This document shows, piece by piece, positions 4,188-13,230 of a stretch of DNA of 64,000 bases. This DNA comes from Candidatus Nitrotoga fabula. Lineage in GTDB: Bacteria; Pseudomonadota; Gammaproteobacteria; Burkholderiales; Gallionellaceae. The notes under the pieces are model-generated. The model was not told the origin of the DNA, made no database searches, and saw nothing but the letters and a program-made list of their open reading frames with translations. How positions within the stretch are numbered: the stretch's first letter is position 1; each line of letters opens with the position of its first letter. A program made the translations under genes and the position numbers. The DNA lies in contig NZ_CAJNBL010000005.1 in NCBI RefSeq assembly GCF_905221025.1, forward strand, positions 62,001 through 126,000, read 5' to 3'.

Positions 4188-6029
4188 CTATATGACATTG
4201 CGCCAGACCCGCCCGTAATTGGATGGAATGCTCAACCATCGCTCCTGCGATCCCCCGATGACAAAATTATCCTGTCCGTGCAATTGTTCCATATAACGAC
4301 CGCCACGCTCAAACCGGAACGGCACATGCTGTTCGGCGTCCGTGAAATTCAAGGCAACCAGGCTCGTTTTCGTTTCCGTCCTGCGCTCGAACAATAACAG
4401 GCCGCGCGACAGGTAACGCTCATAATCATTGAAAAAATAATGCTGCCCGCGGCGAAACTCCTCGCAGTTCCTGCGCAGGCTGATCAGTCTGCGCACCAAC
4501 CAGATAAGGCTTTTTCCGACTTCGTCATAGAAATAATCCCAGCGCAATGGCCGGAGGAGCATCACCCGTCCAAGGCCATCCTCGGGAAGAAAATAATTTT
4601 CTCCGAATTCCTGCCCCTGCCAGAGCATCGGGATGCCCTTTGCACAGAGCAGGCCGATCAGGTACGGCTGCATCCTGTACCAGTGCGCACGCTCGCCTTC
4701 CGCGAACAACGGATTCCAGTCAGGCTGGCGAAGGCCAAATTTGCACAGGAAGCGGCTATGATCATGGTTTTCAATATATTGCAAAGGAGCCTTGGACAAA
4801 ACCTCCCCGTTATGGGTCGCCTGGCCAATGTAACCCAGCGCGCCAAAGCGCATGCCGAGATTTTCAATTGCTCCGGCGGCACCCTGTGCGCAAGAACCCG
4901 CAGCGGCAAAAGTTGCATTCTGCCAGGTGGCATTACTGTAGCTCTCTGCAAGAACCTGCTCCGGAGCCTCCAGCTGTTCCGCAATCTGAATCAGGCGTGG
5001 TCCGTCCGGCGCATCAAACCGTGAAAAACCGGCCATTTCTCCCTTGACGTACTGATAGGTATGGAAGACCAGGTTTGCATACCCCATACCCGTTGCACCA
5101 TCCCAGTAATTGGGCACGCAGTCGTAACGAAATCCGTCAATATGATAGGTCTCCAGCCAGTGCCGGTTTACCGTAAAAAAAAAGTCGCGGGTCAGGGCAC
5201 GGTTGAAATCGGTGCTGACGCCAAAATAATCCTTGGCGAACGGGCCCATGAACGGGTTTTCCCGGTACTGAAGGCGCCGGTAAACATCGGCGTAAGGAAA
5301 GCTGTCGGCGGTATGGCCATACACCGCATCCACGATCACCGCCAGCCCGCGCTGGTGCGCAGCATCCACAAAATGCTGGAAATCCCCGCGCCGGCCAAAG
5401 CGTTCATCCACCCCCAAATACCCCAGCGGCAGATATCCCCAGTCCACCTCCAGCGCAACATTGCTCACCGGCATGACCGACAATGCATTCACACCCAGGT
5501 CCGCTAGATAATCCAGCCGATCCATGGCCCCTTGAAGTCCCGCCCCGAATTCGGAAAGGTTCAGTTCATACAGAATCAGGTCATGCAATGCCGGGGTTTT
5601 CCAGCTTGCCTCGGCCTGGCTCCAGCGATACGGGACGTAGCCGAGCGTGAAGGCAGAAAGCTTTCCAACTGCGTATTCCCGCGCAAATGGGTCCACAATC
5701 CAGTCCAGTATTCCGCAATTCGGGTTGTGCAGTTCATACCGGTACACATGCCGCCCCGCCGAACCGAAACGTGAGCCCGGCTGGACATCCCGGGAAACGT
5801 TGAAATCAACCGTCCCGAACCAGGCATCACCGTATTCCGGGTCGATGCGATGCTGAAGCTCGAAGGTAAGCGGCTGCACCGACTGGATGAACTGGTCATG
5901 CTCGTGAATGATTTTTACATAAAGCCGGTTGCCATCCCGTGCCGAAACCCAGGGCAGCAACAGACCAAAACTAACCACACCCGCTGGAAATTCTTTGGGG
6001 CCCAACTGGTTCAGGGCAAGACTTTTCAA
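4188..6029 (-). CDS. GH13 family glycoside hydrolase (alpha-amylase-like)
   Basis: A 613-residue member of the alpha-amylase superfamily, probably acting on alpha-glucans such as glycogen or maltooligosaccharides. Residues ~1-115 look like an N-terminal beta-sandwich (CBM48/E-set), as in branching and trehalose-releasing enzymes. The (beta/alpha)8 barrel shows the four GH13 regions: VIVDAVYGHT (~231-240), IDGFRYD with nucleophile D303, IAEQLEA with acid/base E351, and IENHDHSRF with D423. A C-terminal beta domain follows. WGYLPLGYLGVDERFG resembles the substrate-path segment of trehalohydrolase/branching enzymes, but exact specificity cannot be told. Start is TTG at 6029, with AGGAG 10 nt upstream. 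No glycogen genes are adjacent; it is probably monocistronic. Confidence 0.85.
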   Translation of the reverse strand: MKSLALNQLGPKEFPAGVVSFGLLLPWVSARDGNRLYVKIIHEHDQFIQSVQPLTFELQHRIDPEYGDAWFGTVDFNVSRDVQPGSRFGSAGRHVYRYELHNPNCGILDWIVDPFAREYAVGKLSAFTLGYVPYRWSQAEASWKTPALHDLILYELNLSEFGAGLQGAMDRLDYLADLGVNALSVMPVSNVALEVDWGYLPLGYLGVDERFGRRGDFQHFVDAAHQRGLAVIVDAVYGHTADSFPYADVYRRLQYRENPFMGPFAKDYFGVSTDFNRALTRDFFFTVNRHWLETYHIDGFRYDCVPNYWDGATGMGYANLVFHTYQYVKGEMAGFSRFDAPDGPRLIQIAEQLEAPEQVLAESYSNATWQNATFAAAGSCAQGAAGAIENLGMRFGALGYIGQATHNGEVLSKAPLQYIENHDHSRFLCKFGLRQPDWNPLFAEGERAHWYRMQPYLIGLLCAKGIPMLWQGQEFGENYFLPEDGLGRVMLLRPLRWDYFYDEVGKSLIWLVRRLISLRRNCEEFRRGQHYFFNDYERYLSRGLLLFERRTETKTSLVALNFTDAEQHVPFRFERGGRYMEQLHGQDNFVIGGSQERWLSIPSNYGRVWRNVI

Positions 6030-6104
6030 AATGCAGGTTCTCCTGTAAAGAAACGCACCATTACACTACTTACTCCTGCCGATCAATACAGCAGCCAACT
6101 ATAA

Positions 6105-6364
6105 AGAATCGACACCTGCGAACAAACTGCGCAGGGAATCACGTTAGGCAGGGCTACTCGGTATTGGAATTGGGGGTTAAATTCCGCCAAGGGGTTTCCC
6201 CTTTGAACCTAAACGATAACAACCAATAGTAACATCGCATTAAAGGCCATTCACATAAACCCAATAGCCTCCGCCAAACCCAAGGCTACTCAACCGGCTT
6301 GGCTTTAATCGATGGCCGTTGAGTTTTCCTGAATCCAGAAAAATGAACGATTATTCATTTCAAT
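6105..6364. other. intergenic region, no gene seen
   Basis: 260 bp between the upstream end of the GH13 gene and the stop of the repeat-protein gene. It contains a short GC hairpin AAGGGGTTTCCCCTT near 6188-6203 and two similar GGCTACTC motifs, but no coding frame, tRNA or clear promoter. It marks the left edge of the accessory island. Confidence 0.5.
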
Positions 6365-6817
6365 CTATACTTCCGAGTCTTCTATTGAGGTACGTCTGCT
6401 CGCTGCAGAACCATAACCCACTTCATTTTCGACATTTAGATTGGCACCCTCAGAAATCTGCTCGATGACTCCATCACTATCTGGAAAATTTCCTGATCCT
6501 TCTTTATCCGTCCCTGCTTCCGAGTCTTCTATAGATGTACGTCTGTTCGCTGAAGCGCCATAACTCGCTTCATTGTCTACATTTACATTAGCACTCTCAG
6601 AAACTTGCTCAACGGCTTCATCTGCATCAAGAGAATTTCCTGATCCTTCCTTACCGCGTTGTATAGGGTTTATCGCGTTCTTTTCTGGTACCCCGCTTAT
6701 GCTGGAAGTTGCAGCGCTTCCATGCGGTTTAATCGTATGTTTATTTTTTTTGATCAGTGCGTGACCTGATGTATGTGATTGTGCACCCTCATTACTGTTA
6801 TTTTTTCCTGCCTTCAT
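6365..6817 (-). CDS. hypothetical low-complexity protein with two tandem 49-residue repeats
   Basis: A 150-residue hydrophilic protein with no recognised family. Residues 1-55 are rich in Lys, Asn, Ser and His; residues 56-104 and 105-150 are two copies of one repeat, each starting KEGSGN and ending with RRTSIEDSE, with a middle of pattern xxEQxSExANxNVxNE. No signal peptide, membrane segment or cysteine is visible; composition suggests an intrinsically disordered protein. The start is fixed by an excellent ribosome binding site (GGGAGGA, 6 nt before the ATG at 6817); the frame stays open to 7054 but that upstream part overlies decayed IS3 sequence. Function unknown. It may be expressed from a promoter within the IS remnant. 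Confidence 0.65.
   Translation of the reverse strand: MKAGKNNSNEGAQSHTSGHALIKKNKHTIKPHGSAATSSISGVPEKNAINPIQRGKEGSGNSLDADEAVEQVSESANVNVDNEASYGASANRRTSIEDSEAGTDKEGSGNFPDSDGVIEQISEGANLNVENEVGYGSAASRRTSIEDSEV
6368..6652 (-). repeat. tandem 147-bp coding repeat (two copies)
   Basis: Two in-frame direct repeats inside the gene at 6365-6817: copy 1 at 6506-6652 and copy 2 at 6368-6505. For example TTCCGAGTCT occurs at 6371 and again at 6518, exactly 147 bp (49 codons) apart. Copies have diverged at silent and conservative positions (Val/Ile, Asp/Glu), with RRTSIEDSE fully kept. Confidence 0.85.
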
Positions 6818-6977
6818 GATAAATCCTCCCGCGAGTTCAAGTCTGAAGTGCAACGCCTGGCTTGAAGAATACCTGATTAGGCGTCTGGCATCCAAATCTC
6901 TATTCTGGGGCGGTTGTTTATTTTTGCCATCACGGTATCCATTTACTGTTGAATGATCGTGATAAAGCCCCGATTCT

Positions 6978-7184
6978 TCAAAAACACGAACGCATTGATC
7001 CATTTTTGTTTTTATTGACGCTGATCCTGGGCGCAATCGATTCTGTGCCCCCATAGAGAGGGATACTCACCACTGTACTCTTGCACCATACGGGCTGCGC
7101 GTTCCTTTACTTCAGGACAAGCATCTTTGATTTGTTCATAACCCCATCTTCTCAGAGAGACCTCCTCAAAACCCGGGAGATTCA
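6978..7184 (-). pseudogene. decayed IS3-family element: left inverted repeat and orfA fragment
   Basis: Reading the minus strand from 7184, a sequence starting TGAATCTCCCGGGTTTTGAG looks like the left terminal repeat of IS3-type elements (TGAACCGCCCCGGG...), followed about 45 bp later by a degenerate OrfA. One frame (7140 to ~7047) reads PEVKERAARMVQEYSGEYPS, the typical helix-turn-helix start of IS3 OrfA; the family continuation ESIAPRISVNKN then appears in another frame, ending in a stop at 6978. A frameshift has therefore destroyed the gene and no orfB is present. The fragment abuts the cyclase gene, whose stop is 27 bp away. This assignment is from motif recognition only. Confidence 0.7.
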
Positions 7185-7211
7185 GTCGGCTATGCCCGAC
7201 CTATCCCGGCC

Positions 7212-8018
7212 TCATGAAGATTTCAAAGTCGCGATTATCCGCAGCGGCGCACCGCTACTTTTTGCTATTTTCATAGGCAAAGCCACAATATAAATGCCTT
7301 TGGCAGGCAGTCGGTCTAAATTGGCCAGATTTTCGAAACCCGGTTTGTTTCGGCCCAGTAAAATCCGATGCGTTGTAAACTCTTGCGATTGGCCGTAATC
7401 CAGGCTGGGGGTATCCAGCCCCAAGGCTTTGATATTTCTATTTTCAACCAGCCACTGCGTCGCGGCCGGAGAAATGCCGGGAAAATGCAATTCCGGTATT
7501 GCTGCCGCACCGGTTTTCTGGGTGCCGAAGTATTTTTCCCGGTCAGGGTAAAACTGCCCATAACCGGTTCTGAAAAGTATGATCGTGTTTTCCGGAATCC
7601 TGCCGTAGTCTTTTTCCCAGTTTTCAATATCCTGAACGCCTACCTGATAATCCCGATCGGCCAATACATGATGCGATACATCGATCATCACCGCCTCGCC
7701 GGTTAAACTGCTGAGCGGAATCTGGTCTACCGTTAATTTATTTTCCGCAAAATGAATCGGTGCATCCAGATGCGTACCCCCATGTTCAGGCGTACAGAAT
7801 CTGTAGGAAGAATAATAACCAAACGGCGTATTGCCTTCCGCCTCAGTGATGTGTTCAAACCCTTTGATGTTATTCGGCCAATACAAAGTAGCACTGTCAT
7901 AACTATGACTCAAATCTATCCATTCCGGATTATTGGGCAAAGCAACAGAGTGATAATGTTGGGAGCACCCGGTAATGCCTGCTATGAATAGAATGAGTAA
8001 TTTTTTCACTGTAATCAT
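7212..8018 (-). CDS. cyclase-family (kynurenine formamidase-like) lipoprotein
   Basis: A 268-residue member of the metal-dependent cyclase/formamidase family (PF04199). The motif HGGTHLDAP at residues 79-87 supplies the family's metal-binding H79, H83 and D85; DLSHSYD near residue 35 and the C-terminal LGLDTPSLDYG and TTHRILLGRN segments are also family features. Unlike the usual cytosolic members, it begins with VKKLLILFIAGITGC, a lipoprotein signal with Cys18, so it should be anchored in the cell envelope. Start is the ATG at 8018; the frame continues upstream without a better start. Substrate unknown (cyclic amides or formylated amines are typical). Its downstream side has been invaded by the IS3 remnant. 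Confidence 0.8.
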   Translation of the reverse strand: MITVKKLLILFIAGITGCSQHYHSVALPNNPEWIDLSHSYDSATLYWPNNIKGFEHITEAEGNTPFGYYSSYRFCTPEHGGTHLDAPIHFAENKLTVDQIPLSSLTGEAVMIDVSHHVLADRDYQVGVQDIENWEKDYGRIPENTIILFRTGYGQFYPDREKYFGTQKTGAAAIPELHFPGISPAATQWLVENRNIKALGLDTPSLDYGQSQEFTTHRILLGRNKPGFENLANLDRLPAKGIYIVALPMKIAKSSGAPLRIIATLKSS

Positions 8019-8389
8019 TTCTGGAAAATAGTAAAAGAAAATATCCGAAACCGATAATGACAGGGTTATCAACCATGTCAATATAAAGATCACTGGTCAA
8101 AAAATTTTATGAACCACTCCATTATCCATGTACTCAAGTAGACTACGTCGGTTATTCATAATATCAATTTGCGAATTTCCTGACATTACCCGATCAAATT
8201 GAGCAGTCATAAATTTGAAGCCCAGGCATTCTGAATATGAAATCAGCCATCATGTGAAGTTTCCTTAACTCGACTAATTTAAGGAATAACGGTGCTTGTT
8301 TGACCAGTACTTGGTTGCAGAAAATATAATTTAACAAGCTCATAACAGCCTTCAGAAATAGACTAAGGAATATCCATTCCAAACGACTA
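8019..8389. other. intergenic region flanking the IS5 insertion
   Basis: 370 AT-rich bp between the cyclase gene and the IS5-type element. No convincing gene. On the minus strand one frame stays open from the island side through this segment (stop at 8194) and, if the IS element and one TA are removed, continues into the other flank, so a short gene may have been interrupted; nothing in it is recognisable. Confidence 0.4.
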
Positions 8390-9222
8390 GAACCTATCTC
8401 AAAATTACCTAAGTAGAATTCTGATAGTTGCCAACTGCACGAAACCGAGAAAATTCTCGGCATAGTATTCCCGTCGACAAAGGAGACGACGTTGCCACTG
8501 AATCCAGGCAAAGAAGCGCTCGACCAACCAGCGTCGTTCATATCTACGCAGGCGGCGACCATCTTGTGTCTTGGGTTTTACCCGGTTTCTTCTATGTGGA
8601 GCGATCATCTCAATGCCATCCTCGCACAACTCTTCATCCAATTTGTCGCTGTCGTAGGCACGATCGCCAATCAGATTCTCAGGCTTTGCCTCTATCATAT
8701 AGAAGTCAAAACTCAACTGCACTAAGGTGACTTCGTGATGATTTGCGGCGTGCGTGCTTACCGCCAACGGCAGGCCATGGCGATCCACTATTGCCATGAT
8801 TTTCAGGCCCTTACCGCGCTTTGTCGGGCTAATTTCATCGCCCCCACCCTTGGCCGATGCGAAGGTGGCATCAATAAAACACTCCGACTCATCAATGGCG
8901 CCTTCATCACGCAGGGCGTTTGCCAAAGCAGTCATAACCTCCCGCAGAACTTCATTTCGACACCACTGTTGAAAGCGGCGATGAGCCGTTTTGTAATTCG
9001 GGTAACACTGAGGCAGCATGTGCCATTGGGCACCCGTATTAAGAATCCAGAGCACGGCTTCGAGAATTTTGCGTGCGGGGATGGGTTTGCGTCCAACACG
9101 ACCAGAAGCAATATCCTCTTCCGGAAAGTGATTCCGGATGCGGTCCCAATGTTGATCGCTCAACCTTAGCATGACTGAAATTATACGGCATACAGCTCAC
9201 AAGTTAATTTTGAGATAGGTTC
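8390..9222 (-). mobile_element. complete IS5-family insertion sequence, 833 bp
   Basis: Ends are perfect 18-bp inverted repeats GAACCTATCTCAAAATTA (8390-8407) and its complement (9205-9222). It is flanked by TA on both sides (8388-8389 and 9223-9224), the 2-bp target duplication expected for the IS427/IS1031-like part of the IS5 family. One transposase gene fills the element and its stop codon lies inside the left repeat. No internal frameshift is seen, so it may be active. Confidence 0.9.
8405..9172 (-). CDS. IS5-family DDE transposase
   Basis: A 255-residue transposase. N-terminal part: LSDQHWDRIRNHFP and GRKPIPARKILEAVLWILNTG, WHMLPQCYPNYKTAHRRFQQW (DNA-binding, DUF4096-like). Catalytic DDE triad: D101 in CFIDATFASAKGGG, D170 in NLIGDRAYDSD and E218 in the YERRWLVERFFAWIQ (Y-(2)-R-(3)-E-(6)-K-like) signature. 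It is a single continuous frame, in contrast to IS5 members that need a programmed frameshift. It starts at ATG 9172 with little ribosome binding site and ends in the terminal repeat. Confidence 0.93.
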   Translation of the reverse strand: MLRLSDQHWDRIRNHFPEEDIASGRVGRKPIPARKILEAVLWILNTGAQWHMLPQCYPNYKTAHRRFQQWCRNEVLREVMTALANALRDEGAIDESECFIDATFASAKGGGDEISPTKRGKGLKIMAIVDRHGLPLAVSTHAANHHEVTLVQLSFDFYMIEAKPENLIGDRAYDSDKLDEELCEDGIEMIAPHRRNRVKPKTQDGRRLRRYERRWLVERFFAWIQWQRRLLCRREYYAENFLGFVQLATIRILLR

Positions 9223-9345
9223 TACAAAGTATATTTCCAGTCTTTCTGGCAAGGTGCCTTGCTAAAGGCGCTTAGCATATTGTGAAGGGGCGTTTTAGCC
9301 GCATTGCGGCGAAGCAACCCAGTGAACAGTAACAAATAACTTGAT

Positions 9346-10020
9346 CTATTTGTTAAATTTTTTATATCTTAATACTGGCACTACAGAGCGATTTAGCTCA
9401 ATAAAGCCAGTGCCATTTTCAGGCAAAACAAAAAGTGAGTCCCCTAGCTTTCCCAAAAAAATATATTCTCCATTCTTCATTCCAGTAACATTTTCAATTG
9501 TAACTGCCATGTATGAGGATTTTTCATTAATATTGTGGGCTTCAGATAAAGCAAGAAATAAAATTAGTGCTGGGGATGGAAATAGTAATAGACATACAGC
9601 ATAACGCAATGCAGCTGTTTTAAATTGCTCCTTCATGAACTTACTAGATGATAGTATGTTCCCAATTGGAATAAGTGATAAAAAATATCCAACTACAGCA
9701 AGAGGGTATTTCAGTCCAAAATATAATGACACAACACCGCCAATGAAAAACCAAAACAAAGCAAGCTTTAGTATTATTTTTTCATGACCTTTTTCAATCT
9801 CCCGTTTTTTTGGGGAAAGAAACTCAACAACAGCACATGATAAAATGATGCAAAATGCCACAACAGATGAATACCCACCATATGAAAGCAAATCGCTTAA
9901 ACTAATATAGATCAATGGGTTTATATCAAAACTGCACCAATATGCCAGAATATATATCAATGCGCTGACGGGGGACCAGACTGTTAATAATGGAAGTACT
10001 TTTTTAATGTCGTCTAGCAT
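9346..10020 (-). CDS. hypothetical membrane protein
   Basis: 224 residues with about five hydrophobic segments: ~8-27, ~35-64, ~85-105, ~108-121 and ~139-160, then a soluble C-terminal domain of ~65 residues containing ENVTGMKNGEYIFLGKLGDSLFVLPENG, which looks like a small beta-strand domain outside the membrane. No family recognised. It is clearly AT-richer than the housekeeping genes, supporting acquisition by transfer. The stop codon lies in an inverted repeat (TAACAAATA ... TATTTGTTA around 9330-9356). It stands alone; role unknown. Confidence 0.65.
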   Translation of the reverse strand: MLDDIKKVLPLLTVWSPVSALIYILAYWCSFDINPLIYISLSDLLSYGGYSSVVAFCIILSCAVVEFLSPKKREIEKGHEKIILKLALFWFFIGGVVSLYFGLKYPLAVVGYFLSLIPIGNILSSSKFMKEQFKTAALRYAVCLLLFPSPALILFLALSEAHNINEKSSYMAVTIENVTGMKNGEYIFLGKLGDSLFVLPENGTGFIELNRSVVPVLRYKKFNK

Positions 10021-10726: not shown

Positions 10727-13150
<2,424 letters not shown>

Positions 13151-13230
13151 TCAATAATTATAAATATATATCATTTATAAATATAAACAATACCCAGGAA
13201 CCTCCTGAGATAAGGATTTATACTCGATGA

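Follow-up and report, generated by a model that had tools for sequence, protein, structure and literature searches.

A small acidic, probably disordered Candidatus Nitrotoga protein with a candidate C-terminal docking unit, doubled in one of its two known carriers

A short minus-strand gene in a 64,000-nucleotide stretch of Candidatus Nitrotoga fabula (the window) very probably encodes a real protein (Table 1), and a relative with a single C-terminal unit was found in Nitrotoga sp. 1052. Unit number varies between these two carriers, one against two. Our preferred reading, held at a confidence a little short of even, is that the protein is confined to the genus, acidic and disordered, and that its C-terminal unit serves as a docking motif and was duplicated in the window strain. 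The product would then be a short, hydrophilic, acidic and intrinsically disordered protein of Candidatus Nitrotoga with a C-terminal unit of 46-49 residues; the unit would bind a partner as a peptide docking motif, becoming ordered, if at all, upon binding, and the in-frame tandem duplication would have doubled the binding sites in the window strain.

The 150-residue serine- and asparagine-rich frame, the good ribosome-binding site and the two in-frame 147-bp repeats described in the first-pass annotation were all recovered. The frame runs from 6817 to a TAG stop at 6365-6367, and the units lie head to tail without gaps, with 81% identity over 137 nt and 64% identity as protein. Tandem Repeats Finder reported this array, one of two in the window, at 1.9 copies with 81% matches and 0% indels. 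At this base composition, any one frame would stay free of stops over 150 codons with a probability of about 5e-5. Codon usage was scored after training on seven genes; the sense frame was the best of the six, yet its score was low (0.018); the cyclase gene scored 0.044, the IS5 gene 0.033 and the seven genes, each itself part of the training set, 0.17-0.39. The frame can also be read upstream to 7054, giving 229 aa. Given that this extension crosses the IS30 and IS3 remnants and that the stretch upstream of 6817 scores -0.046, 6817 is the better start, and the longer reading was rejected.

Table 1. Features of the gene and its upstream DNA (positions within the window)
Feature	Position	Strand	Remark
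150-aa acidic, Ser/Asn/Gly-rich, probably disordered protein	6365..6817	-	stop codon included
GGAGG Shine-Dalgarno	6825..6829	-	7 nt before ATG at 6815-6817
N-terminal 54 residues	6656..6817	-	no significant relative found
Repeat unit 1, residues 55-103	6509..6655	-	
Repeat unit 2, residues 104-150	6368..6508	-	of the two units, the closer one to that of Nitrotoga sp. 1052
RRTSIEDSE of unit 1	6518..6544	-	
RRTSIEDSE of unit 2	6371..6397	-	one residue from the C-terminus
Right end of IS30-family element: transposase gene 3' end and terminus ...TTGAACTCGCG	6830..6978	-	directly abuts the ribosome-binding site
IS3-family remnant	7020..7185	-	IS3 assignment taken from a different part of the matching copy, L033

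The gene in Nitrotoga sp. 1052 (genome G009) encodes 122 residues with one unit near the C-terminus, is preceded by AGGAGG, and matches the window protein at 51% over 43 aa (E 2.7e-4 per genome, about 0.016 across the 61 searched). It is this relative in another genome that supports the coding claim and makes a genuine frame so probable. The alignment scored 97 against a shuffle mean of 39.5, and 0 of 2000 shuffles did as well. When the two genes were compared in all 36 combinations of frames, sense with sense ranked first (97), followed by two antisense pairings at 79 and 62; since an antisense pairing reaches 79, the frame test alone is not decisive. After EDSE, one residue remains to the end of the window protein and eight to the end of the relative. 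Between the N-terminal half of the relative and the window N-terminus there was no significant similarity, 843 of 2000 shuffles scoring as well. A chance open frame combined with a chance DNA duplication would agree with a codon usage unlike that of core genes (0.018 against 0.17-0.39), but the relative in the second genome keeps the frame, the motif, its near-C-terminal place and a ribosome-binding site of its own; this explanation is very improbable and was rejected.

Whole-protein searches (E up to 1) gave matches in 6 of the 61 genomes, counting the window genome itself. Only the Nitrotoga sp. 1052 match was convincing, and weak matches in G021, G034, G036 and G048 (E 0.08-0.45) were set aside. 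A three-unit profile, built from the window and Nitrotoga sp. 1052 units so that their own E-values are not independent, hit 3 of the 19 genomes of the genus when E up to 1 was allowed (Nitrotoga sp. 1052, G001 and the window genome), 2 of 158 family genomes at E 0.1, and 3 of 399 genomes sampled from the order at E 0.05, namely the window genome and, weakly (0.02-0.04), G272 and G307. The G001 match (E 0.106, 15 residues) was not accepted because its locus has no matching small ORF. The unit is known from 2 of the 19 genus genomes, 15 of which are ≥ 90% complete and ≤ 5% contaminated. A pattern search, which requires near-exact short stretches and may miss diverged relatives, picked out 38 stretches in a species-genome collection, of which only that of Nitrotoga sp. 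1052 proved to code for a relative. In viral contigs the pattern matched 24 and 25 times with none confirmed, and no match was found in phages searched with the window protein or in plasmids searched with the 229-aa reading and with the Nitrotoga sp. 1052 relative; a phage or plasmid origin was rejected on these results. The earlier remark that no known family shows this pattern holds for the libraries searched: the best Pfam match (E 0.035, 14.6 bits) fell below the curated cut-off of 24.4, PHROGs gave a non-significant best E of 0.11, and NCBIfam gave no match up to E 1. PDB sequences yielded no match at the limit used. Titles of papers on Nitrotoga genomes, on Nitrotoga transposases and insertion sequences, on Nitrotoga sp. 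1052 and on hydrophilins named no such protein.

Across the three units (two from the window, one from Nitrotoga sp. 1052), 17 columns are invariant, and the core of the 46-49-residue unit reads EQ[IV]SE..N.N[IV][DE].E..Y......RTS[IV]EDSE; with two known carriers, conservation of the unit rests on these three. RRTSIEDSE is identical in both window units, as had been reported. RRxS is a basophilic protein kinase motif, and a kinase target had been tentatively suggested from RRxS followed by acidic residues. The sole relative reads GRTSVEDSE and does not retain RRxS, and glycine in place of the first arginine weakens the kinase idea. Several homologues with varying repeat number had been named as the mark of a real repeat family; repeat number does vary, one unit against two, in a single homologue rather than several.

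The window protein is likely to be disordered, as the first-pass annotation proposed. Both it and the relative fall on the disordered side of the charge/hydropathy boundary, by a formula that follows composition, and AlphaFold gave a mean pLDDT of 51.4 and a pTM of 0.09 with no residues at ≥ 70, a low score that is weak evidence for disorder because the alignment held two sequences. Conservation sits at fixed near-C-terminal positions in otherwise free sequence, a pattern that in a low-complexity protein favours specific binding, and for this reason the C-terminal unit may be a docking motif, a role that we consider plausible but somewhat less than probable.

The main rival to a docking role is a hydrophilin-like stress protein, made when water is short or growth is stationary and acting as an unspecific disordered shield, for which bulk composition would matter and the exact motif would not. 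Hydrophilin cut-offs, as they appear in an excerpt of one paper, are a hydrophilicity above 1.0 and a glycine content above 6% (PMC7448490). Glycine makes up 10.7% of both the window protein and the relative. The hydrophilicity index, taken as minus the Kyte-Doolittle mean, is 1.36 in the Nitrotoga sp. 1052 protein and thus above the cut-off, but 0.90 in the window protein and thus below it. At the relative's locus, an EF-hand protein gene sits about 0.3 kb away and a CsbD-like gene 1.2 kb away; YjbJ, a CsbD-like protein, is listed in a table where sigma-S controlled coding sRNAs are treated for Salmonella (PMC5437024). These neighbours occur in one genome only, however, the EF-hand gene is antiparallel, and neither adjoins the window gene. 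A generic shield would also have no need for a fixed RTS[IV]EDSE. We regard the shield as unlikely, though it deserves weight.

Under the docking reading as under any other, the upstream DNA bears on whether the window gene is expressed. The window query 5800-8400 gave at least 16 matches in the window genome, comprising itself, 12 to 6827-6978 and 3 to about 7020-7185, and at least 13 more in five other genus genomes, all to 6827-6978. Better preserved copies of the repeated DNA at 6827-6978 encode an IS30-family transposase (7.3e-72, 2.2e-66), and in one copy matching 7020-7185 a neighbouring stretch belongs to an IS3-family transposase (5.4e-49). Together with an IS5 transposase gene at 8405-9172, these remnants bear out the description of the region as an IS-rich island. 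The IS30 terminus ...TTGAACTCGCG is followed immediately by GGAGGATTTATCATG. A leader shared by many genes was considered and rejected, since the multicopy DNA is the IS30 end followed, by eye, by differing DNA, as judged in the 14 of 16 loci where the script found the terminus. In genome G008, six contig ends on five contigs (L021, L026, L028, L030, L032, L034) carry an IS30 match 33 bases from the edge, and the assembly therefore seems to break at the IS30 repeat.

The DNA before the ribosome-binding site of the relative differs from that of the window, and blastn with the window upstream DNA gave no match at the Nitrotoga sp. 1052 locus, which suggests to us that the window lacks the original upstream region. 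A crude scan for sigma-70-like promoters in 6150-7300 found none, where shuffles average 1.4. The sole sigma-70-like match at the relative's locus lies downstream of the gene, so the absence of a promoter does not separate the two carriers. Because the IS30 end directly abuts the ribosome-binding site, expression of the window gene is doubtful: either transcripts start in the IS remnant or run through it, or the gene is silent, and the window copy may be on its way out. A rival account is that a once-functional gene of the genus was cut from its promoter by IS30 in the window strain and is drifting, the tandem copy being a neutral replication slip. The abutting terminus and the lack of a promoter-like site would fit such decay, as would the 17 of 19 genus genomes without an accepted match, but IS ends can also bring outward transcription.

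The flanking genes would also fit this decay account. An amylase-family gene (4188-6029), which lies downstream of the ORF at a distance of 335 bp, and a cyclase-family gene (7212-8093) flank it, and searches of the 18 remaining genomes of the genus found no counterpart of either (E 1e-30 for the former, E 1e-10 for the latter). The region is an accessory stretch between core genes, which we take to be pgk, pyk and fba on one side and gyrB, dnaN and dnaA on the other. From the ORF lists inspected, the two carriers have no neighbours in common, and window 5800-9500 gave no blastn match to the relative's locus. The relative's surroundings (L013:2741-3820) hold the EF-hand protein gene on the opposite strand and the CsbD-like gene on the same strand. 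Elsewhere in the window, a 17-bp AT-rich tandem repeat of 2.8 copies lies at 13146-13191, between the gyrB-like and dnaN-like genes.

Comparison of the units themselves bears on both decay and function. The first-pass annotation had seen selection in the conservative differences between the repeats, and this was upheld in part: the substitutions are of a more conservative kind than chance would give (P 0.013-0.019) and the two window units have a mildly low dN/dS of 0.46, but the number of amino-acid differences, 16, is close to the 17.2 given by random substitution (P about 0.36). The near-random count would suit a drifting gene, whereas the conservative changes would not; nor would the 150 codons that are still open, given that 27 random substitutions would introduce a stop into a unit in about half of all trials. 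Decay is a minority possibility in our judgement. Between the relative and unit 2, pS is 0.745 (saturated) and pN 0.245, with 10/10/21 differences by codon position, so that third positions hold 21 of 41 (P 0.014). For the relative and unit 1, dN/dS is 0.52 and the differences are 15/14/17. Protein-level constraint is visible in these sequence comparisons, resting on 38 codons, and is clearer between species, especially for unit 2, than between units. The window units differ from each other by a dS of 0.40, while dS to the relative is 0.96 for unit 1 and saturated for unit 2, so the duplication appears to postdate the separation from Nitrotoga sp. 1052.

A second small Nitrotoga protein, with a hydrophobic tail, is encoded at L016:1435-1755 (G003, 106 aa) and L039:1501-1830 (G009), the two copies being 82% identical; the L016 copy had no Pfam match up to E 1. 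The N-terminal half of the relative aligned with this protein at scores of 74 (G003; shuffle mean 28) and 61 (G009), with 0 of 2000 shuffles as good in each case, although the G003 match had been picked from a search (E 0.007 for one genome of 19). The window protein was not significantly similar to it (for L016, 421 of 2000 shuffles did as well, and for L039, 780). The initiation regions look alike, but the similarity of the window N-terminus to the G003 and G009 starts was not significant either, with 114 and 156 of 2000 shuffles as good. A search with the 106-aa protein at E up to 0.1 matched 24 of 158 family genomes, namely G003, G009 and 22 weak ones (0.002-0.09), of which 12 are antisense to one conserved gene (LGGLS..EFLRDYWQKKPLLIR) and 9 showed nothing convincing. 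The same protein found the Nitrotoga sp. 1052 relative gene at E 0.0086, and because antisense noise reaches a better value of 0.002, a module shared between the relative's N-terminal half and the small protein is suggestive only. With a profile of the N-terminal stretch, 9 of the 19 genomes in the genus gave matches when E up to 5 was allowed, but below 0.01 there were only the three source places of the profile (one in G003, two in G009), and three of 399 genomes sampled from the order matched at 0.05, all weakly (0.02-0.03). A Nitrotoga-specific modular set, in which a shared N-terminal module is joined to either a membrane-helix-like tail or a disordered acidic tail that ends in RTS[IV]EDSE and acts as a multivalent docking tail whose unit number varies between strains, is accordingly a long shot; if true, the two proteins would possibly be membrane-bound and soluble partners of one process.

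Many unexplained genes encode small disordered proteins that are confined to a single genus. Here, the position-specific motif, the single-unit relative and the possible link to a second family would offer concrete baits for a partner search, and the single-unit relative also suggests when the duplication arose. The practical weight is limited, with two carriers, a putative function and a window copy that is possibly silent. Compared with the small protein of G003 and G009, the relative possibly shares the N-terminal part; the small protein ends, by eye, in a hydrophobic stretch and not in the unit. Compared with hydrophilins (disordered stress proteins such as RMF and YciG), the window protein is likewise small, glycine-rich, hydrophilic, free of cysteine and predicted to be disordered. 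The likeness is one of composition, and the window protein differs from hydrophilins in its lower hydrophilicity index, its fixed motif and its tandem unit.
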